NCBI GenBank assembly: GCA_030068145.1
Contig: JAPJBO010000982.1
Span: 1-64,000, forward strand
From: Diplonema papillatum
Lineage: Eukaryota; Euglenozoa; Diplonemea; Diplonemida; Diplonemidae
Direction of reading: 5' to 3'
Length of the DNA stretch: 64,000 bases
Part shown: positions 13,086 through 63,247 of the stretch, one piece after another
How positions within the stretch are numbered: the stretch's first letter is position 1
Layout: each line of letters starts with the position of its first letter
Position numbers and translations under genes: made by a program
The notes under the pieces: model-generated
Databases searched by the model: none
The model's input: only the letters and a program-made list of their open reading frames with translations
What the model was told of the DNA's origin: nothing

Positions 13086-13640
13086 CTAAAAGAACTCGGC
13101 CTCTCCCTCGATTGTGCCGTAGAGCACCGTGGATGTGGCCTCCAGGTCACTCCACATCCAGCCCCTGTCGGCCCAGGACACATCCCTCCTCGACGTGTCC
13201 ACAGTTGTGCCGCTTCCGTCGAACCCCCTCTTGAATAACCTCCAGTGGCCGTACAAAGGATGGACCAGCGGCACACATCCGCCTCTGCCTCCGTCGGCAT
13301 CCTCTTCAACTTCGACCCAGTAGATGTGGCTCTCGTCCACTGCCCCACACGCAGAACAGAGCTCGTTCGTTGAGCCTCCCCTGCACTTTCGTCGGGTAGG
13401 AGCTGAAGCCGCCAGCAATGGCGACTCTCACCAGCTGCGGTCGTGGGGTTGCATCCTCCAGACTTCCAGAGTGGTGTGTTGCCTCGAGGTCGACACCATC
13501 GGTGGACCTCCACCAGAGTTTCCCCCGGCGTCGTCCTATCCAGGCATAGTTCACCATCTTTCGGGTCCCAACAAGTGTACTTGACCTCAAATCCCTTTCC
13601 AGTAAATCAGGATCGGGATGTGCTGCGTCCTCAAGGATTG
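13086..13640 (-). pseudogene. Retrotransposon C-terminal fragment, zinc-knuckle and RNase H-like
   Basis: Minus-strand frames give VNYAWIGRRRGKLWWRST, then (after a frame change) C-SAC-GAVDESHIYW, a C-x2-C...H knuckle of the LINE type, and FDGSGTTVDTSRRDVSWADR. The latter recalls the first strand of RNase H (x-DGSG-x(n)-RR-x-GW), with GTIEGEAEFF resembling the helix that carries the catalytic Glu. Frames shift at least twice, so this is a dead fragment. Assignment to a LINE RNase H region is by motif likeness. Confidence 0.45.
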
Positions 13641-13929
13641 GCACATCTCCCTTTCAGTGCGGCTTATAGGGTTGACACCCTAAGCCTCGCACACGTGTGA
13701 CTCCTTGCTCCGTGTTTCAAGACGGGTAGTAGAAGATCGCTGTGTCTGACATGAGCCTGTGAGAACTTAGCCACGCTGTACATTAACGGAGGCGCGCACA
13801 TTGTCCGGAGACGCCGAGACTTACCTTCCTTCAATGCATAGCGGGTTGGATCTCAGCGTAGCCGTCCCGGGATTTCTCGAGGTCGCTCCACAGGCCAGGT
13901 CCGTGTCGGCAGCTGAAAGGGGTCGCATC
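13641..13929. other. No gene recognised
   Basis: Nothing supportable. Confidence 0.4.
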
Positions 13930-16348: not shown

Positions 16349-16727
16349 CCATTTGCCTGCGATTCGCGTTCTTTTTCTCCTGTCATTTCCTCGAGCAAAT
16401 AACCGCAAAACCATACATCGCGAGAGTAGGAAAAAGTGGGTCGCCCTAAACCGTTTTCGCTCCAGCTACTGGGTTTTTAGTGGGTAACATGGTTCCACCC
16501 GCCTCCGGCCATGAGTCCCACACTCTTACTTCGTGAATCAGATTTGTGGGTACCACGAAGGTGTGTTATGTCAGGGCGAAAAAAAGCGGGGATCCCGCTT
16601 TTTCTGAAGGCGGGGTACAAGTATGCTTAACCTACGAAACAAAATTGAGCACCCCCCCCCACGGTCGACCGGGGTAACGAACTGGATGCTTCCTCCGAGT
16701 CTTCCTCCCCCCCCCCCCAAAAAAACA
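16349..16727. other. No gene recognised; small hairpin and C tract
   Basis: A 10-bp hairpin (AAAAAGCGGG-GAT-CCCGCTTTTT) lies near 16581-16603. A pyrimidine tract with 12 C residues ends in AAACAG at 16727, which resembles a splice acceptor for the USP segment that follows. Confidence 0.5.
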
Positions 16728-17164
16728 GGGAGAAGCCCTACACCGAGTCAGTTGAGGATCTGATAAAGAAAGTGCAAAACAAGAGAGCAACCAAAGTGGA
16801 CGACTTCCCCTGTAGCACCTGTAACAAAAAGACCGTTGGATCCACGAAGGAAGATTACACATTTCCAAAGCAAATGGATGTAACACTGCAACGAGCACAG
16901 CTATCGAAAAAAACACGCGAAGAAATAAAAATACCAGCCCGCACCCCGATCCGACAAACCATACTGATCGGTGAAGACTCCTACACGGTAAAAGGCTTCA
17001 TTATCCACACCGGAAGAGCAACGGCAGGTCATTACTATACCGTGTTAAAGGAAGACGATGAATGGGTATGCTACGACGACCAGCAAGTATCCGTACTCTC
17101 ATGGGAGGAATGTGCCAGGAGATTCACAACCAATGGCTACGTCATCTCTCTCGAGAAAGCGTAA
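16728..17164 (+). CDS. Ubiquitin-specific protease C-terminal fragment
   Basis: The frame running to a stop at 17164 has half of the USP zinc ribbon (CSTCNKKT) and the USP His box: KGFIIHTGRATAGHYYTVL, then DEWVCYDD. The His of AGHYYT and the Asp of CYDD are the usual catalytic pair. The segment KQMDVTLQRAQLS and later VSVLSWEE fit neighbouring USP strands. The Cys box is not found upstream. It begins behind an acceptor-like pyrimidine tract (AAACAG at 16722-16727), so it may be a last exon of a host deubiquitinase, or a fragment of another USP-bearing retroelement. Its sequence differs clearly from the USP domain at 23.0-23.9 kb. Confidence 0.6.
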
Positions 17165-17951
17165 ACACTTTCACCTGGTGGAAGTAGTGCCCCGTGGCGG
17201 TTGGTTACGAGCCACAACCCAATTTGTAAACCCCCTTTTTTTAAAGAAAAACGGACGAAGGGAGGAGGAAGTGAAGCCATAGCACATGGTTTCAAACCAC
17301 GGAGTCCTGGACTCCTTTCCCACACTTCTTCAGCAAGGCAGACGCACAAAAGGACGGTGCCACGGCATGATTCGGCAGCCGCTGCTAAACGAACATCGAC
17401 GTGGGCGGCATAGAGAAAGAAGAACTACTCTACGGCACCAGAAAGTCCAAAAATACCATGGTAAAGAAAATTAACGTTAAAATTAGAAGTAAAAGGAGAA
17501 AAAAGAAATTGTCGACAACGAAAGAAAGAACAGAAAAAACAGAAAACGGGAAAAAAAGAAAAAAAGAAAAAAAGAAAAAAAAAGAAAAAAAGACTCTGCA
17601 TTCCGCGAAGAAGACTTGATGCTAGCATCAAACACTTAGAGGCAAGTAGCGCCTGAACACGAAACTAAGATTTTCCCCCCTACCCATTCCAAGCACGTTC
17701 TTGCAATCCCCCCATTCCAGTAGGGTACTTCGCGTAACGCGACTTGCTGCCCTCAGCACGCAGGATTACTTCCTCGCACTCTTTTCCTTTTGGTACTTCA
17801 ACCATTGGTGCTGCACACGGCAACCCCATGTCCACTGTGCTCTGCGGAGTTTACTTCGCAGATTGCCACCGTAAAAAGAAGACAAGTCAGTGCTGCCTAG
17901 CGAGTCGCAGTCACAATCAGGGCGAGTGCCCTGAGTTTTTTAACTGATTGC
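17165..17951. other. No gene recognised; A/G-rich strand and repeat end
   Basis: 17460-17605 is strongly purine-rich (AAAGAAAAAAAG runs). 17684-17708 repeats the terminal motif CATTCCAAGCACGTTCTTGC of the hammerhead-like repeat family. Near 17370 is a piece of the dispersed family 'GCCGCTGCT...ACGTGGGCGG'. Confidence 0.5.
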
Positions 17952-18225: not shown

Positions 18226-18490
18226 AGTCGTGGGTGACGTTTACCTCGCGGCCTTTGTCCGGATCCCCCGGAATGCCCACGACATGACTGTCCGTGCCCC
18301 GTCACCCTCCATGGTGCTTCCTACTCAGGATCGACTACCCGACTTGCCTGCACCCCCAGGTTCAGCCGGTAGTTTGATGAGCCGGCAGTCGGAAGGCTCA
18401 CCTGACTCCTTCTGCCCCTTTGGTAATTCGCCACCCTGCCCGCCCTTGCCGGACTCTTTTTATTTACTTTTTCCCGCCCGGTGTCGCTGA
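18226..18490 (+). pseudogene. Truncated Penelope-like element, USP end (copy 1)
   Basis: Translation from 18230 (DVYLAAFVR..., later TVRAPSPSMVLPTQD) matches the C-terminal end of the USP domain and following Pro/Ser-rich segment of the large element ORF (23870-24100). Everything 5' is missing, and about 440 bases including the C-terminal finger are deleted relative to the full copy. The body is 5' truncated, as expected for target-primed retroelements. Confidence 0.8.
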
Positions 18491-18800
18491 TGACTAACGG
18501 ACCGTCGGACCCGTCCCAATGGGGGTACTTATGGAAGCTACAATGAAGGCTTAGACCGGTACGGGCTACATGGCAACCCCTGCTCAACATGTAGAACGTG
18601 GGGGGCCCTTGATCACATTCATTGCGGGTGTGGTCGTGGTGTCGGTCGCAATAGTCGCTTTGCTAGCCAAAGAGAGAGATAGAGAGAAAAAGCGCCAGAG
18701 AGAAAAGAAAAGATAACGTTATCTTCCGGAAAAGAAGGGTTACGCGAACCCCCGAAAAAATAATTACCCCAAAAAAATAAAAACAAAAGAAAAAAAATAG
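18487..18800 (+). mobile_element. 3' tail of PLE copy 1
   Basis: From GCTGATGACTAACGGACCGT at 18487 this is nearly identical to the tail of the full copy (24541-24830). It includes GAAGGCTTAGACCGGTACGG, a GAGA run, the palindrome AAGATAACGTTATCTT and the close ACCCCCGAAAAAA. It defines the 3' end shared by two copies. Confidence 0.85.
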
Positions 18801-19771
18801 AAACCCGGGTCAGCATATAAGCCCCCTGGAGCCAAGCCCGTGCGAGAGGCCACAGAAGCAGTAAGCGCTCGTCGTCTTCCTCAGAACCCACCTCTGATTC
18901 CAGCCACTTCCCCTAGTAGCTACTCGTGGCTGCTGGTAACTAATGGTGGCTACTCGTGGCTGCTGGTGACTAATGGTGGCTACTCGTGGCTGCTCGTGAC
19001 TAATGGTGACAGTCAACGCCGCGTGGGTGCGGGCTATTGATATTAACATCATGTTTCAAACCCCCGATTGGGGTGTCGGGGGTACAAAGGTGCAGTTGCC
19101 CGCATCCATTGGCCCAAATACCCCAAAAACCACACTTTGAAAATTTTTTGTGGGCCCACTTTTGCCAGGGAATTTTGATTATTTCACCTTACAGAATTCG
19201 ACCACCCAGCCTCCAAGGCAACTGCACTGTAGAAGGGGGGTCCCTTGCAAAGTCGTTGGGGGCTCTCAGGGTAGTGTTCAGCCCCGCTGTACCACCAACC
19301 ACGGCATCGAGACCGGGCAGAGTCTAGGAGTATTCCATCCTGCCCCCGTACGGCCTCGTTACTTCCAACCGGGATTGTACCATTGTTCGACAACCGAAAA
19401 CCCAGAACACCGACAAAGACGCGCTGGGCCCTGAGCCTAGCAAAAAAACCAACAGCAGTAGTTTAGAAGCGTGAATCCCCTGCCCCTTGTGAATTGCACT
19501 ACACCGACTGCCCAGCCGAGCAAACCACCCCGTCCGCCCGCCCCTCCCCAACACCCCTTCCGTTACGTTACGTACCATCAGCTCTCCTCCGTCCATCATT
19601 AGACCTCCCTCTACGACGATTCTTCTTCCACCACTAGACCTCCCTTCGCCACCCCCCTACAACACCCTAGCCCGACACCCTGACCCCCCACAAATCCCCC
19701 TCCGTTCTACACGTCCGGTTTTGCGACAACCCGACCCACAAACGCACGGGACCCTGCCGGAACGTGCCGAG
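18801..19771. other. 5' flank of the PLE; small minisatellite
   Basis: At 18918-19010 three units of about 30 bp (TGGCTACTCGTGGCTGCTGG plus TGACTAATGG) are arrayed. From about 19030 sequence leads into the element; its 5' boundary could not be fixed. The PLE reading frame is already open from about 19560, without ATG, and is Pro-rich there. Confidence 0.5.
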
Positions 19772-22700
19772 ATGCGTGTGCCACCAGCCGACGCGGATAT
19801 GCGACGACGCCCGGAGTTTGCGAAGCCGTTCCTCGCGCCTTTCTTCCAAACCGACTGTGTTCGTGCAAAGACGGAGAAGACGACACAGATCGACTGGCTG
19901 AAGTGGAAGGAGCAGGGCTCGGAGTTTACGAGCCGATTCCTGAGGAGATACGAGAGGAGGCTCGCACACACATACGCGACACTCAAGCTCCAGCAGCCGA
20001 CGAATCCGAGCAACTACAGGGCTTCGGGGCTTATCTATGGGCTCGTGGATTCACATGCTAACCTGTTGTATGTCGGCAAGACGGCAAAGACGATGCAGGA
20101 AAGGGTCGCCAAACACTGGTCTGCCAGGAACACCAAACAAGACCAGTTCAAACGTCACCTGCAGAACCTCCCCTCCCCGCCGTACTCGTTCGTGCTCTAC
20201 GACATCCCTGGTGCGTTCTATGCCGACGGGAGATCGTTCGACAGGGTGTCGGAGCCGATAGAGATGGCGTTCATCGCGATGCTGCAGCCGAGGTTCAACA
20301 CGGTGAGGACGACCAGCGGCTTGAACAACCGAAGGAAAAAGCCCCGCGCTGCTCCGTCGTTCACAAAGGCGTCGGGCAACGAACCGGACACCCCAGGGGC
20401 CTCTCGTGAACGTGGGGAACCGTGGGTTCACGTGGATGGTGAGCAGATACGGATCGACCAAGGTCGGGGGAGGTACTTCGGCATCCGTAGACAACTGCAG
20501 CACCTCTTCGGGCTTGAGGAAGACGTACTACAGAAGTATGACGTGAACCCGTGGATGAAGAGCCGGGTGTACAGGGTCCGGACATGGGTTCGGCGGTTCA
20601 TGGCCGAGCACCTGCAGCTTCCGAAAGTGGGGATCCTGGACGAGCTGCTCACGGCACGGCTCGGTGAAATAAACCACCTCGCGAAGAAGAAGAAAAGTGC
20701 GGCGCGAACTCCGTGGTTCTGTATCCAACAAGTCAGTAAGTTGCTCGACGAACGCAAACTGGCCGCCATCTTTCGTCACGATGCGCAACTCCGTGCTCTC
20801 CTCGCCGACCCCACGGAATTCATCAATACAAGGGTCTCTACATCACTCAACCCCCCCCTTGGTGTCCTCCTTTCCAACTTCACGGAGGTATCAAGGCAGA
20901 CGACCCCGGAGCCGGCCCCTCCGCCCGAGGAATGCCCGTGTCAGAGATATCTACTACAAGGATACCACATCCAGGGCCATGCGTGTGGGCAGGCACACCT
21001 CCTCGACACCAGCAGCGAGCTCGTTACACTCTTCGACAAAGGTCGCAAGTTCCGACCGGACGGCGGCGACGAGGCCATTTGTACTGAGGTTGATAAGGCG
21101 GTGGCTTTGTTCATCGAAGGGTATTTCAGCGATTCCCCGCCTAGTTTCGCCAGGCTACTGCGGGAGAAGATACTGTCGACTGTCGGCGTGGCGAGAATCG
21201 GGGCCGAACCGGAGGTGACGACCACGACGCGACGACGCCTGCGGGAACTGTACAAGGACGTCGTGATTCTCCCGGTCGACAAGAGCTCACATGACTTCGG
21301 GTTCGTATGCAGACGATTCTACAACCAGGATCTATACACGAAGGTCAACCACAGCGTAAACTACGCCCCGAGCGAAAAGACACCGGAGGAAGTCGTTGCA
21401 GACCACAAGACATACCTGGACGACAGAGGGCTGAGCCCCACGAACACCCTCCCCTATTTGTATGGTACCTTGAAACTACATAAGGAGGTGATAACCATGA
21501 GGTACATAGCGGGGGTCTCCCGCAAGAACACTGTGGGCCCGGAGGAGACGTTCCCTGAACGCGAAACACGCCGCCCGGATGCGACATTCTCATCAACGAC
21601 AGATGCGCAGCTAGATCTGACGGGGTTGTTGAAATCGGTCATGGAGATCTTACGGAGGGAGGACAACGACCGTTTCAATGCGACCGGGTTCAGGTTCTTC
21701 TGGATCACGGAGTCCAGCGACGACACGGCCTTCTTCCTGAAGACTCATGTTGATGAGCTCTCGGGTCTAGTTGCTGGTACGTTTGACTTCACAACCATGT
21801 ACGACCAGCTGGGGCTCGAGGAGCTGTCGGAAGAGATTTCCAATACCATCGACGAGGCTTTTGCGGCGGAAGCCGAACGGCTTGGCATACGGGTTGAAGA
21901 CCTAGTCCTGGTACGACCGAAGAGCCAGCACGGGCCGCAAAGGAAGAAACGCTGTTTTACTTTCAAGCTATCGACGGAGCTAAGTTCGCAGCAGGCAGCG
22001 TATTCCGCGCAGGACCTCAAAGCTCTCCTTGCCTTCTGCCTAGCGAACACGTATGTACTGGTGAATGGCACCCTCATGCGGCAAATACTGGGCATCCCGA
22101 TGGGTGCTAACGCCTCCCCGGACATTGCAAATCTCTTCTGCTACGCAAAGGAGAAAAGGTACATGCTGAAGCTCCTGGCTGAAAAGGAAATCCGACGGGC
22201 TACACTCCTCAGCATGACGCGCCGTTTCATCGATGACCTACTGTGCTTCGGGACGAAACCCCCGCCCGAATCCATCTACAGCATGCGATACAAGCAGACG
22301 AACACATGCGTAGGGGATTCCACCTTCCTTGGCATACGAATAAGACACGAAGTCTCCGACGCGTCTGGAAGGAGGTACATGCGACTGTCGGTTCTGGACA
22401 AAGCGAAAGCCTACCCATACCGCCCCCTCGCGTACACGTCGGTCCTCTCGACGGCCCCGTCCAACTTCGGTTCGAGTATCCTCATTGGGGCCCTCGTTCG
22501 TAACGGTAGGATCGCCAACAACCTGTATGACTTCAAAACTGAGATGAACAACACGGTTTTGAAACTCATGCGACGCGGTTACCGTAAGAGCGTACTAAAG
22601 AGCGGTTTCCGCAAGTGGCTACTAGATACGTATCCGGAGGCTAAGTTTGGCGAGCATTGCGGGAAAGTGCGTGCACATTTCTTTTGGCTGATCCACGAGG

Positions 22701-24265
22701 TGGAACGTGTCCTGTTGATGCCAGAACCGGCCGCGATGGACCAGGCGATTGAGCGCCTTCTGGCTGAGAAGCCCTTTGTGAAGTACAGAGGCCACCCCCA
22801 ACCCGTTCCAGAAGCCGACTCCCCCCCACCGCCATCCCCCGAGACGTCGGCCCGACAGGCAGACTCGACCACCCCCCCTGAGTCCACACGGAAGGGCCAC
22901 AAACGAAAGGCTGAAGGGGACGAGCAACGTGACTCGAAGCGACGCCGGGCGAATGCCTGTAAACCAGCTCATGCAGTTCCCCCGACATCCACACGCTGCC
23001 AATCGGTCATCTGTGCAAGTCCGCCTTTCGTGAAGCATGATCCGGCACTGTTTGGTCCTGCCGGCCTCCCAAATCTGGGGAATACGTGCTTCCTTGGTGC
23101 TGTGCTGCAACTCCTCATACGGGTTGAACCGATCAGGGAGATGTACTGGAGCCTTGCTCAGGACCGCCTCAACTGCTGTGGGTTCCTCCGGGACTTCCTG
23201 GCTTACTTTGCCGTATTAGCAAGCTCGCGCGACAGCGGGGACCAGCGCAGCCAGGACTGTCGAAGAATGGGTGTGCAGGCCGTCTTAAACATGTTCCCAA
23301 ACTTCTGCGATGCGCTGCAGCACGATGCACACGAAGCATTGGTAGCGATCCTGAACGCGACTGAGACGACGCTGGGACCGGACGAAACCGAGGCCCCCTG
23401 CCCGGGCTACCAGCTCTTCTTAGCATGCGTGGAGAACCGTTGGACCAACACGACACGATGTGAGGCATGTGGACGAACTAGTTCCAGCCCTCAGGCGGTA
23501 CAATGTCTGCAGATCCCCTGCGGAAAAAGGCTGGAAGATTCTCTCTGCGTACGCGGGTTTGTAAATCCGAAGAGAGGGTGCGACTGCGAAGCTGTAGGGA
23601 CTGTGGCAGAGGATACGAACCTCCGGCTAACGGCTGATTGTGTACTGATGCAATTTGGCATCTACACGAGAAATGGCGCTAGACGCCGGAATGACGTTGG
23701 GTTACCTCTCCTCTTAGAGCTACCGGGCCACCTACTGCGCCTCGCTGCAGTCGTGGTGCACTTGGGGGAGAGTACGGCTAGTGGGCACTTCGTCACGTAC
23801 GTTGCGCAAGACTCAGGTTGGATCCTCTTCGACGATCTACGGGTCAGCCTCGTCGAGGACATTCCTTGGGACAATGTTTACCTCGCGGCCTTTGTCCGGG
23901 TCCCCCAGATTGCCCACAGCGTGACTGTCCGTGCGCCGTCACCCTCCATGATACTTCCTGCTCAAGATCAGCTACGCGGCTCGTCTACGCCCCCAAATTC
24001 TGCCGGTGTTGTGGTGAACCGACAGTCGGAAGAATCACCTAACCTGCTCTACCCTTCTGGTAGTCCATTGCCCTGCCCGCCCTTGCCGGACTCCTTATGC
24101 CCGACCCCGCATGGTCAGCTGTTGGAGCAGCAGTGGGCGGGATCCCCTGCGCTGCGGTGTCAACACTGCGCCATCGAGTGTACCAAAGATGGGCAGAAGT
24201 TTCAGGGTTTGAAGGGACTCCGTGCACATGAGAGACGTTGCCGCCTCGCGAGTGAAAGACTCTGA
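19772..24265 (+). CDS. Penelope-like retroelement polyprotein: GIY-YIG + RT + USP + zinc finger
   Basis: 1497 codons from the first in-frame ATG, with no stop or shift. Residues about 86-180: GIY-YIG nuclease (LIYGLVDS, LLYVGKT, ERVAKHW, and E-x3-I-x-ML-x-PRFN). Residues about 500-850: reverse transcriptase with PVDKSS, PYLYGTLKLHK, FDFTTMYD (catalytic Asp 672), GIPMGANASP and RRFIDDLL (Asp 821, 822). The order GIY-YIG before RT matches the Naiad/Chlamys type of Penelope-like elements; classical Penelopes have it after. Residues about 1090-1385: a complete ubiquitin-specific protease with LPNLGNTCFLGAVLQLL (Cys 1106), LQHDAHEAL, a zinc ribbon (C-x2-C...C-x-C), SGHFVTY (His 1339) and LFDD (Asp 1354). 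A CCHC-like finger follows (C1463-x2-C...H-x4-C). Codon use is less GC-biased than the host genes. All catalytic residues are present, so it may be functional. The role of the protease, for example removing ubiquitin from the element's own protein, is inference. Confidence 0.88.
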   Translation: MRVPPADADMRRRPEFAKPFLAPFFQTDCVRAKTEKTTQIDWLKWKEQGSEFTSRFLRRYERRLAHTYATLKLQQPTNPSNYRASGLIYGLVDSHANLLYVGKTAKTMQERVAKHWSARNTKQDQFKRHLQNLPSPPYSFVLYDIPGAFYADGRSFDRVSEPIEMAFIAMLQPRFNTVRTTSGLNNRRKKPRAAPSFTKASGNEPDTPGASRERGEPWVHVDGEQIRIDQGRGRYFGIRRQLQHLFGLEEDVLQKYDVNPWMKSRVYRVRTWVRRFMAEHLQLPKVGILDELLTARLGEINHLAKKKKSAARTPWFCIQQVSKLLDERKLAAIFRHDAQLRALLADPTEFINTRVSTSLNPPLGVLLSNFTEVSRQTTPEPAPPPEECPCQRYLLQGYHIQGHACGQAHLLDTSSELVTLFDKGRKFRPDGGDEAICTEVDKAVALFIEGYFSDSPPSFARLLREKILSTVGVARIGAEPEVTTTTRRRLRELYKDVVILPVDKSSHDFGFVCRRFYNQDLYTKVNHSVNYAPSEKTPEEVVADHKTYLDDRGLSPTNTLPYLYGTLKLHKEVITMRYIAGVSRKNTVGPEETFPERETRRPDATFSSTTDAQLDLTGLLKSVMEILRREDNDRFNATGFRFFWITESSDDTAFFLKTHVDELSGLVAGTFDFTTMYDQLGLEELSEEISNTIDEAFAAEAERLGIRVEDLVLVRPKSQHGPQRKKRCFTFKLSTELSSQQAAYSAQDLKALLAFCLANTYVLVNGTLMRQILGIPMGANASPDIANLFCYAKEKRYMLKLLAEKEIRRATLLSMTRRFIDDLLCFGTKPPPESIYSMRYKQTNTCVGDSTFLGIRIRHEVSDASGRRYMRLSVLDKAKAYPYRPLAYTSVLSTAPSNFGSSILIGALVRNGRIANNLYDFKTEMNNTVLKLMRRGYRKSVLKSGFRKWLLDTYPEAKFGEHCGKVRAHFFWLIHEVERVLLMPEPAAMDQAIERLLAEKPFVKYRGHPQPVPEADSPPPPSPETSARQADSTTPPESTRKGHKRKAEGDEQRDSKRRRANACKPAHAVPPTSTRCQSVICASPPFVKHDPALFGPAGLPNLGNTCFLGAVLQLLIRVEPIREMYWSLAQDRLNCCGFLRDFLAYFAVLASSRDSGDQRSQDCRRMGVQAVLNMFPNFCDALQHDAHEALVAILNATETTLGPDETEAPCPGYQLFLACVENRWTNTTRCEACGRTSSSPQAVQCLQIPCGKRLEDSLCVRGFVNPKRGCDCEAVGTVAEDTNLRLTADCVLMQFGIYTRNGARRRNDVGLPLLLELPGHLLRLAAVVVHLGESTASGHFVTYVAQDSGWILFDDLRVSLVEDIPWDNVYLAAFVRVPQIAHSVTVRAPSPSMILPAQDQLRGSSTPPNSAGVVVNRQSEESPNLLYPSGSPLPCPPLPDSLCPTPHGQLLEQQWAGSPALRCQHCAIECTKDGQKFQGLKGLRAHERRCRLASERL

Positions 24266-24900
24266 ACCGTCGTTTGGGCCTCATCGAATTCCTGACTGTT
24301 GGCTGGTCTATTTTACGCTCTGCACCCGTTCACCCTGACTAACGGGAAACAACTCGAAGTGTTCTATACGGGTGAATGCGCACTATCATGAGAGGATGAA
24401 GGCACGCATATCCCGCCTGGCCCTGTGCTAGGCGTAGTTTTAGGTTGTACTTATTTCCGAACAACCTACCACGAGCTTATCCACCCACACACCCAACTTT
24501 TTCCCCTTTCTTCTAAATTCTTTTTTTTTTTTTTTTCCCCGCTGATGACTAACGGACCGTCGGACCCGTCCCAACGGGGATACTTATGGAAGTTACAATG
24601 AAGGCTTAGACCGGTACGGGCTACATGGCAACTCCTGCTCAACATGTAGAACGTGGGGAGCCCTTGGTCACATTCAATACGGGTGTGATCGTGGTGTCGG
24701 TCGCAACAGTCGTTTGGTAGCCAAAGAGAGAGATAGAGAGAAAAAGAGCGCCAGAGAGAAAAGAAAAGATAACGTTATCTTCCGGAAAAGAAGGGTTACG
24801 CGAACCCCCGAAAAAAAAAAAAATAATAACACAAAAAAACAAAAACCGGGGAAAAAAAAAAAAAAAATACAAACCGACGAAGACCCCAAAAACCTTTTTC
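24266..24900 (+). mobile_element. 3' untranslated region and tail of the PLE
   Basis: About 270 bases unique to this copy, then a T tract (24520-24536), then the tail shared with copy 1 (24541-24830), ending in A-rich simple sequence. The 16-bp palindrome AAGATAACGTTATCTT is kept in both copies. CTGATGA lies at the start of the tail but no matching GAAA box and stem were found close by. Confidence 0.75.
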
Positions 24901-24978
24901 AACCTCTCCAATTCCCTTCAAGCTAGACCATTATACAACGGCCCCCCCCCCCCTGGTCGGGGTGTTTTATTTCTGGAA

Positions 24979-25038
24979 GGGTTCGGTTTTGGGGTCGGTT
25001 TCGGGTTCGGTTTTGAAACCGACCCCAAAACCGAACCC
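24979..25038. repeat. Hairpin, 23-bp perfect arms
   Basis: Arms 24979-25001 and 25016-25038 are exact reverse complements (GGGTTCGGTTTTGGGGTCGG on the left), with a 14-base loop. The right arm runs on into the minisatellite below, so the left arm is an inverted copy of part of the repeat unit. Confidence 0.9.
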
Positions 25039-25290
25039 AAAACCGAACCCAAAACCGAACCATCCAGAATTAGTTTTGGAAACCGAACCCAAAACCGAAC
25101 CCGAAACCGAACCATCCAGAATTAGTTTTGGAAACCGAACCCAAAACCGAACCCGAAACCGAACCATCCAGAATTAGTTTTGGAAACCGAACCCAAAACC
25201 GAACCGAACTCGAAGCCGAACCTTCCAGAATTAGATTTGGAAACCGAACCCAAAACCGAACCGAACCCGAAACCGAACCTTCCAGAATGA
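25016..25290. repeat. Minisatellite of about 54 bp
   Basis: Four to five units with CCAGAATTAGTTTTGGAAAC followed by tracts of CGAACCCAAAAC. Each is composed of smaller hexamer-like blocks (CCGAAC, CCAAAA). Confidence 0.85.
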
Positions 25291-27079
25291 GTTTTGCAAC
25301 AGTTCCCGGGGTTTTCCGAGGGGCGGGTGGGAGACGCGAAGTGGGGCCATCTTGCGAAACCGCGCACGTTTTCTTTTCATCGGGAACGCCCTCGCAGACA
25401 AGAGGGTTTCTTGCAAGCACGACAATGCAGTTTCGGAGTTTGGCTGGGGCGGCGCATTCTGTTACGCAGTACCGCAGGTGTCCTGGGGCAAGCTCAGGCG
25501 GGAACAAAAATCCCGCACAGCGCGGAAGGGTAAACGCCTGCTCGATTGATCTTCAGTACCGATCGGTGTGAAAGCATGGCCTAACGATCCTTTGGTCTCG
25601 CCTCATGTTCAAGGGATGGAGACAGGGGCAACACATGGCTGTCGGCCGTTCCTGCGGAACGGTGCCTGACGTCGGGAGACTTCCTGCCAGACCTTTGCAC
25701 AGGACCACCCCATTCAGAACATCTGCGGACTTATCGGTCGACGCTCCCGACCCCCGCCAGCACATCGCGCGGGACCGCCAACATGGAAACAGGCTAGAAA
25801 CCCCGTGTCCACGCGGTGCCATCTCACCCGTTTCTCATCCGCCCCCTCGGTCGTCCGTTTACCTCCCCCCTGCTGTGCGCGCTTCGTTTTGCCTTCCACG
25901 CCTCCTTTTGCTCGGACGTGTTGTTTATGGGAAGAGGTGACCACGCGTGCTCACCTCTCCTCTTCGACGATCGAGATCCCGGAGTGTTTTCCGTTTTCCT
26001 GCTTTTTTTTCGCCTTCTCCACACCTTCCAACAACATCTGTGGCTCATTCGTTCGACTCCTGTTTGCCCAAGCGAATCCCGGGGAGCGCTGGCCGATCGA
26101 AAGCCGCTTGTTGACTCCTGCAAAAAGCGGAGAAGAAAGCGAGGGGTCTCGGGGGCTCGGGGGAAGCCCAGCAACGTTGTAGAGGATATACTACATCTGT
26201 GGCTACGTCTGAGGTACCCAGCCAGTTTTCCAACGGGTGGCTAGGAGAAACAACCCACTGGAACTTGACCAGCTTTGCACGAAGCTCAGCTTTCTCTTCG
26301 GGTCCGCTCGACAGGTCCCACCTTGGGTGCAGGACTGCTTGACGTCGCCTTCGGTACCGGAGAGCTGCTGGCGGGGATTGAGGAGATAAGTTGCACTGTA
26401 ATGTTTAGGCAGAACACTGTACGTGCACTTCCGCACCTCCTCTGCACGCAAGTTCCCTCAGTGGGGTACCGCAAATGTTCATCAGTAGTGTAGACATCGT
26501 GCTGCTATCAGCAATGTAAGACGCAACCGTTAGGGCATCCTGCTTCGTTTTCAGCCGCTGAGCAATCGAAGTCCGTCTAGCACGGGAAGCCGCCTAGGCT
26601 GTCGCAAGGGATGTCGTTCCACGTCGGGGAGGGAATTCTACTTCGGCACCTTGCACTTGTCACTTTGAACCAAGAAAGGTAGAAAGAGGGAGCAGTGACA
26701 TTACTAGCGATGGGGTAAACCCCGCAGAGGCCTTAGAGAGTGAGAGAAGATGGCTACTGCGAGGGGATGGCGGGTGGGCCTTACCCCGGCACTCGTTGCA
26801 AGCAACGGACTACTTGGTGCAAGATATGTAAGCGAGACACGAAGCGAAAGGGCCAACACATAATTAAGCTCCGAAAACCATGTCAATCAAGGGTGGGCGG
26901 GTGGGAAAGCAATTTGATTTGCCCAAACAACCCAAGTACCCTGTACGTTTAGGTGCCTCAAGGATTCCCTCGATGAATCGGGATACCAGTTTCCACGGGA
27001 GAAAAAGGGACATCTGCACGGTTTGGGTGTGGTGTGAATATCACCAGAATAGTGGCAGGAACCTTTGCAGTTGGACCCT
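25291..27079. other. No gene recognised
   Basis: Many overlapping short frames but none convincing. 25545-25600 (TTCAGTACCGATCGGTGTGA, then AGCATGGCCTAACGATCC) recurs diverged at 49748-49800. 26270-26460 holds ordinary sequence without a recognisable product. Confidence 0.4.
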
Positions 27080-61130: not shown

Positions 61131-61252
61131 CATCTGCAGGTTGGTGGCAAGGGGGGAGTTTCTTTATTCAGGCTTATTTAGACTGTTCTTTTGCGCGCGC
61201 GTGCGTGTGTGTACGCTGGGATTGGTAAGAAGGCAGACAGAAAGTGCGAACC

Positions 61253-63247
61253 ATGCGGCGGGGGCTGCCCAGCGTGCCGCGGGATGTGTTGCGGAAGCGT
61301 GACGGCAGGGTGCCGGCGAGCCCCGGCCGGCGGTTCACGACGCTGGACGTCGCGACATGCGCCTCGAATGCCGCGGGGGTCACCCGGGAGGCGGCTTCGA
61401 TCGCGTTCGTCCTCGCCTCGCGCTCCTTCCGGGCGGCGTCGCCGTTCTCCCTCGACAGCTTGTTCCCCCACGGCCTCACTCTCGAGCAGCTGGAGGCAGC
61501 CGCAGCCGGGCTACAACGCATGGCCTCCTCGCCGCTGCCCTGTCCATTCTCCCCGGCCGCGACGCAGCGCCCGACTGCAGACGACGGCCCGCCTTCCCAC
61601 CAGATCAACGAAGAGCTCCTTCACCTCCGCCGAGAGCACAACGAGCTGCTCAAAGTCCTCATCGACATGCAGCGGCAGATCCAACAGCAGCAACAGGCCT
61701 CCGGCCAGACGGGTGGGGTTGACCGTTTACCACGCGTGGAGACCGGCCCCGTAGGGGTGCCGGAAAAAGCGCGAAACCCGGCGAGCGAGCCGCCTGCGGG
61801 TACGCCAGGAGGGCAGGCGCAGCCGGTGCACGTGCCCGCTGCCAGCGCGGCGGTCGCGGTGGCGGAGGCTGAACCCGCGCTGACCACGAGCCAGGTGCCG
61901 GCTTCCTCGCTCGGGCGGGCGTGGAGCATGGGCGGGCTGTTCGCGCGCCTCGCGTTCGACGCGAGCAAGCGGCGGGTGTTCGGGAGGCCGGAGAACGACA
62001 GCGCGGGCGTGATCAGCACACGATCGCTTGATGTGATGGTCGACCGGCTCTGCCACATGCGCGGGGCCGCGCTGAAGCTCGGGCAGATGCTGAGCATCCA
62101 GGACGAGGGCCTGGTTCCAAAACACGTGCTGGAAGCCTTCAAACGCGTCCGCGACCGCACCCACGCCATGCCGCAGCACCAGCTGCAAAAGGTGCTCGCC
62201 GAAGAGCTGGGCACGGACTGGCGGGCGAAGTTCAAGGCTTTCGACGACACTCCGGTGGCTGCCGCGTCGCTGGGGCAAGTCCACCGGGCGACCCTTCCGT
62301 CCGGAGAGGAGGTGGCGGTGAAAGTGCAGTTTGACGGGGTGTCCCGGAGCATCTCGTCTGATGTGTCGAACCTGCGGTGGCTGTTCTCCTTCGGCATCCT
62401 CCCGAAGGGGTTGTACGTCGAAAACATCCTCCGGGAGCTGCAGCGCGAGCTGGAACGAGAGTGCGACTACACCGGGGAAGCCGCGCGGCAGGTCGCCTAC
62501 TCGAAGTGTTTAGAAGCAGACCCGGAGAGGCACGGCGGGCTCGCGATGATTCACGTGCCCGCGGTGTTCCCCGAGGTATCGTCGAAACGGGTCCTCACGA
62601 CGGGGTGGGTCAATGCGACGTCCGTGGACCGGTTCTTCGACAAGCCGGAGGACGCGCTGCCCCCAAACCGGCGGAACGCCATCGGGGAGACGTTCCTGCG
62701 GCTCACGCTGAAGGAGCTCTTCGACTGGCGGATGATGCAGACCGACCCGTCGTTCGCGAACTTCCTCTGCGGGGAGGACGGGTTCTACCTGATCGACTTC
62801 GGCGCCGCTCGGACATACGACAGGGAGTTCGTGGAGAAGTACCTCCTCTTGGTGTATGGGGCCACAGTGAACGACCGGGAAATGGTCGTCAAGAACAGCC
62901 TGGAGCTCGGCTTCCTGACCGGGGAAGAGTGCGCCGAGATGCTCGACGCGCACGTGCAGGCGGCGTACGTGGCGAGCACGCCGTTCGCGCGGCGGGGCCC
63001 GGCAGACTTCAGCTCGTTCGACATGTCGGCGGCGATGGCACCGCACGTCAAGACGATGCTGCGCCTGCGGCTGACGGCGCCGCCGCTCGAAGTCTACTCG
63101 CTGCACCGGCGGCTCAACGGGTGCTTCCAGCTGATGGCGAAGCTGAAGGCGGTCGTCGACTGCCGCCGCGTCTTCATCGACACGCTGCGCTCCATCGCCC
63201 CGACGCTAGCGGAGGAGACGAGGAAGCAGCTCGTCCTGAAGTACTGA
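61253..63247 (+). CDS. COQ8/ADCK-type atypical kinase (ubiquinone biosynthesis)
   Basis: 664 codons, single exon, from ATG at 61253 (MRRGLPSVPRDVLRKR). The Arg-rich, acid-poor N terminus suits a mitochondrial targeting sequence. Residues about 125-165 are a short coiled coil with QQQQQ. The UbiB/COQ8 core begins near MGGLFARLAFD: the KxGQ motif is LKLGQML (Lys 275), then the Ala-rich loop AAASLGQVHRA, VAVKVQF, ERECDYTGE, the COQ8 hallmark MQTDPSFANF (Asp 498) and LIDFGAAR (Asp 515). All signature residues are present. COQ8 proteins are matrix-side membrane-associated ATPase/kinase-like factors that support the coenzyme Q synthesis complex. The first about 35 codons lie in a sequence amplified four times upstream, and an 80-bp tandem repeat starts at the stop codon. 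Alternative starts are Met at 61520 or 61928. Confidence 0.88.
   Translation: MRRGLPSVPRDVLRKRDGRVPASPGRRFTTLDVATCASNAAGVTREAASIAFVLASRSFRAASPFSLDSLFPHGLTLEQLEAAAAGLQRMASSPLPCPFSPAATQRPTADDGPPSHQINEELLHLRREHNELLKVLIDMQRQIQQQQQASGQTGGVDRLPRVETGPVGVPEKARNPASEPPAGTPGGQAQPVHVPAASAAVAVAEAEPALTTSQVPASSLGRAWSMGGLFARLAFDASKRRVFGRPENDSAGVISTRSLDVMVDRLCHMRGAALKLGQMLSIQDEGLVPKHVLEAFKRVRDRTHAMPQHQLQKVLAEELGTDWRAKFKAFDDTPVAAASLGQVHRATLPSGEEVAVKVQFDGVSRSISSDVSNLRWLFSFGILPKGLYVENILRELQRELERECDYTGEAARQVAYSKCLEADPERHGGLAMIHVPAVFPEVSSKRVLTTGWVNATSVDRFFDKPEDALPPNRRNAIGETFLRLTLKELFDWRMMQTDPSFANFLCGEDGFYLIDFGAARTYDREFVEKYLLLVYGATVNDREMVVKNSLELGFLTGEECAEMLDAHVQAAYVASTPFARRGPADFSSFDMSAAMAPHVKTMLRLRLTAPPLEVYSLHRRLNGCFQLMAKLKAVVDCRRVFIDTLRSIAPTLAEETRKQLVLKY

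Follow-up and report, generated by a model that had tools for sequence, protein, structure and literature searches.

An N-terminal GIY-YIG Penelope-like retroelement of Diplonema papillatum carries an intact-looking ubiquitin-specific protease domain

Why should a retroelement encode a ubiquitin-specific protease (USP) in the same open reading frame (ORF) as its endonuclease and reverse transcriptase (RT)? This question is raised by a locus in the first 64,000 nucleotides of contig JAPJBO010000982.1 of Diplonema papillatum (the whole stretch is called the window; features lie on the + strand unless marked otherwise). The evidence supports the view that the locus is a USP-bearing new form of Penelope-like element (PLE) with an N-terminal endonuclease. 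Its frame at 19772-24265 is free of internal stops on translation, as claimed by a sequence-only reading of this DNA, and encodes 1,497 residues plus stop, in the order GIY-YIG endonuclease, CPC motif, RT, proline-rich spacer that includes a basic bipartite stretch, USP and C2HC finger. According to pairwise BLAST, the frame lies in a 5'-truncated copy of subfamily A1 with a poly-C end (19277-24953). P- and L-numbers below are labels of the proteins and loci compared.

The GIY-YIG domain occupies residues about 80-190 (20009-20341). Pfam PF01541 matches residues 86-128 of the window copy with E 7.9e-4 and 20.1 bits, which is under the cut-off of 22.6, while the relatives score at the cut-off (P0003, 22.6) or above it (P0004, 23.0; three family B proteins, 25.6-26.5). 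By reading, there is a single Cys before GIY-YIG in family A and scattered ones in family B, unlike P0025 and P0031. The CPC (CxC) motif (C388 and C390, 20933-20941) is invariant in 7/7 aligned sequences. The telomerase-like RT and thumb span residues 386-1010 (20927-22801), based on alignment and predicted fold. Pfam RVT_1 gave no match in the window copy up to E 1, and matched one of three family B proteins scanned, under cut-off. The RT is called because of the motifs FDFTTMYD (21782-21805) and RFIDD (22223-22237), aspartates that are invariant in 17/17 aligned relatives, and the predicted telomerase-like fold: the model (m682d94cfcaea; predicted local distance difference test score 88) has telomerases as top solved-structure matches and places helices between the fingers strands and motif A. 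So the GIY-YIG and RT assignments of the sequence-only reading hold. The basic bipartite stretch KRK...KRRR of the spacer (22901-22948), a possible nuclear localisation signal, is also present in P0003 and P0004 besides P0001.

The USP (peptidase C19) domain covers residues 1095-1375 (23054-23896), and Pfam UCH matches residues 1098-1363 with E 4.1e-20 and 72.9 bits (cut-off 23.9). All the elements of a complete USP that had been claimed are there: the Cys box NLGNTCF, QHDAHE, the zinc ribbon (Cys residues 1230, 1233 and 1270), GHFVT and FDD, with Cys1106 at 23087-23089, His1339 at 23786-23788 and the Asp box at 23831-23836. Active-site residues are conserved over 11 divergent USPs. The predicted structure has a complete catalytic fold, triad and zinc ribbon, all in common with USP12, USP46 and USP1. 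Its top structural matches are USP12 and USP46, and USP1 and the SAGA enzyme Ubp8 are also among the matches. Sequence identity to USP12, USP46 and USP1 is about 20-23%, and here the domain is carried by a retroelement. It is a complete, intact-looking deubiquitinase domain and would probably be enzymatically active. Residues 1463-1490 (24158-24241) form a zinc finger by sequence reading; the finger that had been proposed at the C-terminus is therefore present, but its type is C2HC and not CCHC. Similar C2HC fingers were read in P0007 and P0016. The 3' untranslated region (UTR) and poly-C terminus (24266-24953) are common to the family A copies compared.

Is the fusion more than a single accident? 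The D. papillatum genome searched here comprised 271 Mb in 2,910 contigs (the published assembly is given as about 280 Mb in the text available of PMC10161547). A protein search with the window ORF, in which the best 31 of 1,435 first-look candidates were scored, gave 33 matches. The absence of the fusion from other copies had been named beforehand as refuting; 24 of the 33 scored matches are full-length and stop-free, six of them nearly identical along residues 1-1497 and 18 with 86% identity along residues 1-1496. The other nine are partial, one of them with a stop. A third family A subfamily is represented by P0004 (71% identity over RT, 68% overall), and the NCBI D. papillatum protein P0002 is 100% identical over the queried residues 395-1075. 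Chance or misassembly is implausible because other intact copies have different 3' flanks.

A second family (B) was revealed by a 171-residue USP tail at 16649-17164 of the window. The tail belongs to a 5'-truncated family B copy at 16721-17685, consisting of the C-terminal USP part, 3' UTR and C-run end (97.9% to a family B query). Searching the genome with this tail gave at least 150 matches with 63-100% identity (best 150 of 1,253 candidates scored), many of which terminate open frames of 1,417-1,525 residues. Four family B proteins were read; they have a basic N-terminus, GIY-YIG, CPC, RT and USP in the same domain order as family A, without C-terminal finger. UCH was matched in the three scanned with E 9e-16 to 4e-18. 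Families A and B share 30-31% identity across the whole protein, so the fusion is found in a second, divergent family too.

We also searched the genome with the UCH profile and scored the best 149 of 935 candidates. From reading the table, 112 of the 149 resemble family A subfamilies in how far they extend along the profile (to position 240) and in their bit scores (76.5-85.9). Another 34, with scores over 86 bits, have the appearance of host genes, duplicates and single exons being among them. Three are other fragments, and the lower-scoring pattern of family B is in none of these 149. Among these best-scoring candidates, retroelements seem to account for most USP domains; the tails of family B, at least 150, come on top. 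In the public annotation, 'putative ubiquitin carboxyl-terminal hydrolase 16' is the name given to the intact elements P0003 and P0004; the NCBI models P0006, P0010 and P0014 join element pieces to host genes (RRP12, a Mg/proton exchanger and a dynein intermediate chain).

The ends of the copies are regular. The window copy is 5,677 bp and lacks the first 274 bp of L021, which is itself short: L022 and L023 have 7,222 bp in common at 99.9%, and L027 and L028 have 7,457 bp. Because of these long shared stretches and a family A tandem pair on contig C230 that repeats at 7.9 kb, a complete family A unit probably measures about 7.9 kb. L027 contains an 84-bp repeat. The family A 3' end was ATACAACG, mostly with A or G, and then 6-21 C in 11/11 places; second loci of one place were not recounted, and L004 and L005, whose identical 3' flank may reflect a single place assembled twice, were entered as two. 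The family B end was (A/G)ACTAAG...T and then 5-19 C in 23/24 loci, with L029 as exception. C-runs also occur at some 5' junctions (L021, L024, L026, L035 and the fragment at 18229). This fragment, at 18229-18805 upstream of the element, derives from subfamily A2, is truncated at its 5' end, has an internal gap and follows a poly-C run (97.8% and 95.2% to two separate L028 stretches). Pseudo-long terminal repeats (pseudo-LTRs), in which the 3' end is copied upstream and downstream, are present in eight of 12 long family B loci (L033 is split and L036 is a tandem array). Their identity reaches 100% over 436 bp and is 97.4-100% in L030, L031, L034, L035, L037 and L038. Three family B copies stand head to tail on contig C510 (79901, 85627 and 91353; spacing 5,726 bp). 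For the window copy itself, no pseudo-LTR or tandem arrangement was seen, and hammerhead ribozyme families gave no match up to E 1 in five loci. Short repeats built on a GAACCCAAAACC-like unit, some tandem and some inverted, occupy 24979-25296 directly after the 3' end of the element. The N-terminal GIY-YIG, CPC, telomerase-like RT, tandem copies and the pseudo-LTRs of family B bear out the placement among N-terminal-endonuclease PLEs.

Nei-Gojobori comparisons between subfamilies A1/A2, B1/B2, B1/B3, B3/B4 and B1/B4, in this order, gave omega (nonsynonymous to synonymous ratio) values of 0.199, 0.258, 0.120, 0.097 and 0.126 for the USP, 0.061, 0.111, 0.070, 0.064 and 0.073 for RT, and 0.340, 0.582, 0.441, 0.194 and 0.339 for the spacer before the USP (29-84 codons), with the B1/B3, B3/B4 and B1/B4 ratios being rough because synonymous sites are near saturation. 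The C-terminal tail including the finger had omega 0.402 (A1/A2). Between families A and B, omega was not computable for RT or USP. Purifying selection acts on the USP of both families (omega 0.10-0.26, or 1.5-3.3 times the RT value). Amino-acid changes per site were fewer in the USP than in the spacer (A1/A2, p 0.0046; B3/B4, p 0.0012) and more numerous than in RT (A1/A2, p 2.6e-10; B1/B2, p 0.038). The spacer was itself constrained in A1/A2 (p 0.00017) and B3/B4 (p 0.0032), and no constraint on it was detected in B1/B2 (p 0.51). It means that the USP is kept, but less tightly than RT.

The fusion is not limited to this species, and a single transcript was found to span RT and USP, two points on which the sequence-only reading had asked for evidence. 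P0018 is the 1,232-residue product of an assembled transcript tagged Rhum_TRINITY, probably from Rhynchopus humris, another diplonemid, and contains CPC, RT and USP. P0007 (43% identity over RT) continues after its RT with several fingers of the C2HC type and, behind them, a divergent USP. P0015 has part of an RT, and a USP. P0031, with 14 member sequences, shows cysteine pairs ahead of its GIY-YIG, then a CDC motif, an RT and a USP (E 2.9e-18), which makes it a Naiad-like element. By Pfam, no USP was found in P0016, P0023-P0028 and P0033-P0035, several of which are fragments. The C-terminal extension after RT of P0023, an N-terminal-endonuclease element, had no Pfam match at E 1 or below; it holds NPNGACGYIL, slightly like a cysteine-protease box. 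P0034, translated from a transcript with the tag EG (probably that of Euglena gracilis), has a GIY-YIG-like start, CPC, RT and a long tail, and hints that elements of this type may extend more broadly through Euglenozoa. Two patterns were sought in viral contigs; 52 stretches fitted one or the other, and none of them encoded a relative.

An RT tree was made from 17 sequences including two of family A and two of family B; P0015 was left out and no named Chlamys RT was among them. Families A and B, P0007, P0018 and P0016 formed one group (100/99), and P0031 was in a separate group of six (98/97). The root is arbitrary, the end branches of P0031, P0034, P0035 and P0028 are long, P0034 joins P0035, and P0018 and three others have odd composition. 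A single clade of all USP carriers plus P0016 was rejected (approximately unbiased (AU) test, p 0.0015), so the USP was either acquired two or more times or acquired early and then lost repeatedly. The USP tree, built with four cellular USPs only to separate one capture from several, rejects neither grouping: a clade of all retroelement USPs has AU p 0.23, and one that excludes P0031 has 0.33. The USP fusion belongs to a diplonemid clade and one Naiad-like element.

What does the USP do for the element? We consider it probable that this N-terminal GIY-YIG PLE was active until recently in D. papillatum and that the USP serves transposition, most likely by deubiquitinating the element's own ribonucleoprotein in cis. 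The data show the gene structure, copy number, intact frames, purifying selection on the USP, its presence in divergent families and in a transcript of another diplonemid and, by prediction, the folds; enzymatic activity, substrate, target preference and order of steps are our inference, as follows. The element protein would bind its own RNA, and the endonuclease would cut DNA, by preference at poly-C/poly-G tracts. The telomerase-like RT would then prime from the cut end, which pairs with the C-run at the RNA 3' end. Such pairing of C-run and cut G-run may be likened to canonical Penelope elements, whose copying begins within element RNA via homology to cut DNA (PMC11167929, in the part available). 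The outcome would be tandem copies with pseudo-LTRs. Most likely, the USP would strip ubiquitin in cis so that a rare protein escapes the proteasome; it might also deubiquitinate chromatin or repair proteins where the DNA is cut.

That last activity could instead be the whole function. USP1, USP12/46 and Ubp8 deubiquitinate histones or replication/repair proteins, and a USP acting in trans on such proteins at the target would let integration intermediates be accepted and repaired. The structural matches to these same enzymes and the basic, NLS-like stretch that adjoins the USP in family A point this way, and a DNA-repair role is proposed for Ulp1 and OTU domains of DNA transposons in the accessible text of PMC2836005. 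However, fold likeness among USPs is no guide to substrate, many unrelated USPs lying within 2-3 Z, and we regard action on the target alone as rather unlikely. Some viral proteases that process polyproteins have deubiquitinase activity, and the long multi-domain polyprotein with its proline-rich spacer ahead of the USP could suit a protease that cuts the element's own product; this role is disfavoured and seems improbable to us, because no Gly-Gly occurs within 100 residues before the USP in 9/9 proteins checked (P0015 was outside this set).

A captured host domain kept as baggage without function for the element would still be fused in this way, but it would hardly be under purifying selection in both families, keep its active-site residues over 11 divergent USPs and occur in a Naiad-like element of a different RT group, so passive capture is very improbable. 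The annotation of intact copies as 'hydrolase 16' and the gene models that join element pieces to host genes might suggest that the fusion arose in assembly or gene modelling, or that a host USP gene simply adjoins a retroelement. Against this stand the single frame shared by many copies whose 3' flanks differ, the identical architecture in the second family and the assembled transcript with both RT and USP, and we give this explanation almost no credence.

The finding suggests that ubiquitin is an obstacle which a PLE must overcome to spread, and a clean active-site mutant makes this testable. We suggest tentatively, as a possibility somewhat short of even, that PLEs recruited USPs on two or more occasions for a central role in transposition, against ubiquitin-based host control, and that they multiplied in Diplonema until most USP domains there were retroelement-borne, a mobile reservoir possibly affecting host ubiquitin signalling. 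The USP counts and 'USP16' annotations of the D. papillatum genome are inflated by retroelements. The finding also places N-terminal-endonuclease Penelope elements in diplonemids, which are among the most abundant marine microeukaryotes (PMC10161547, text available). Elsewhere in the window there are 28S rRNA fragments at 13431-13701 (-) and 25440-25621 (+), which match the about 3,600 scattered 28S rRNA pieces described for this genome in the same text. The ORF at 61244-63244 (+) has an ABC1 atypical kinase domain (E 1e-57) and is probably a host gene.

How does the element compare with known systems? The Chlamys and Naiad groups of PLEs were reportedly defined by an N-terminal GIY-YIG by Craig et al. 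in 2021. In N-terminal-endonuclease PLEs the endonuclease is N-terminal to RT with a CxC motif between, there is an insertion-in-fingers domain, and insertion is biased to simple repeats; they are not known to have a hammerhead ribozyme, and no CCHH motif is known in the endonuclease of the Chlamys group. The window element is like them in having N-terminal GIY-YIG, CxC and telomerase-like RT in one ORF, and the Diplonema elements are also alike in pseudo-LTRs, tandem copies and the lack of any hammerhead found. They differ in the C-terminal USP, the diplonemid host and the C-run termini. Chlamys-group elements are known from Ectocarpus (PMC12477816, part available). Canonical Penelope/Poseidon elements share a telomerase-like RT with GIY-YIG and pseudo-LTRs, but their endonuclease is C-terminal, they have a hammerhead ribozyme, and no USP is described for them in the portion of PMC11167929 at hand. 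A USP in a PLE had been thought unreported, and none was found in the literature searched, with the 2021 paper defining the N-terminal-endonuclease group outside the search; the searched text of the D. papillatum genome paper (PMC10161547) contains neither 'penelope' nor 'ubiquitin'. According to the text available, Ulp1 proteases occur in NeSL and Utopia non-LTR retroelements (PMC4640811), and Ulp1, OTU and peptidase C19 are fused with DNA transposases, the C19 case being a pfam01609 protein of Trichomonas vaginalis (PMC2836005). These fusions, like that in Diplonema, put a ubiquitin- or SUMO-removing peptidase on a transposition protein; unlike it, the retroelement fusions there are of Ulp1 and C19 is on a DNA transposase, so that a USP in a transposon has precedent.
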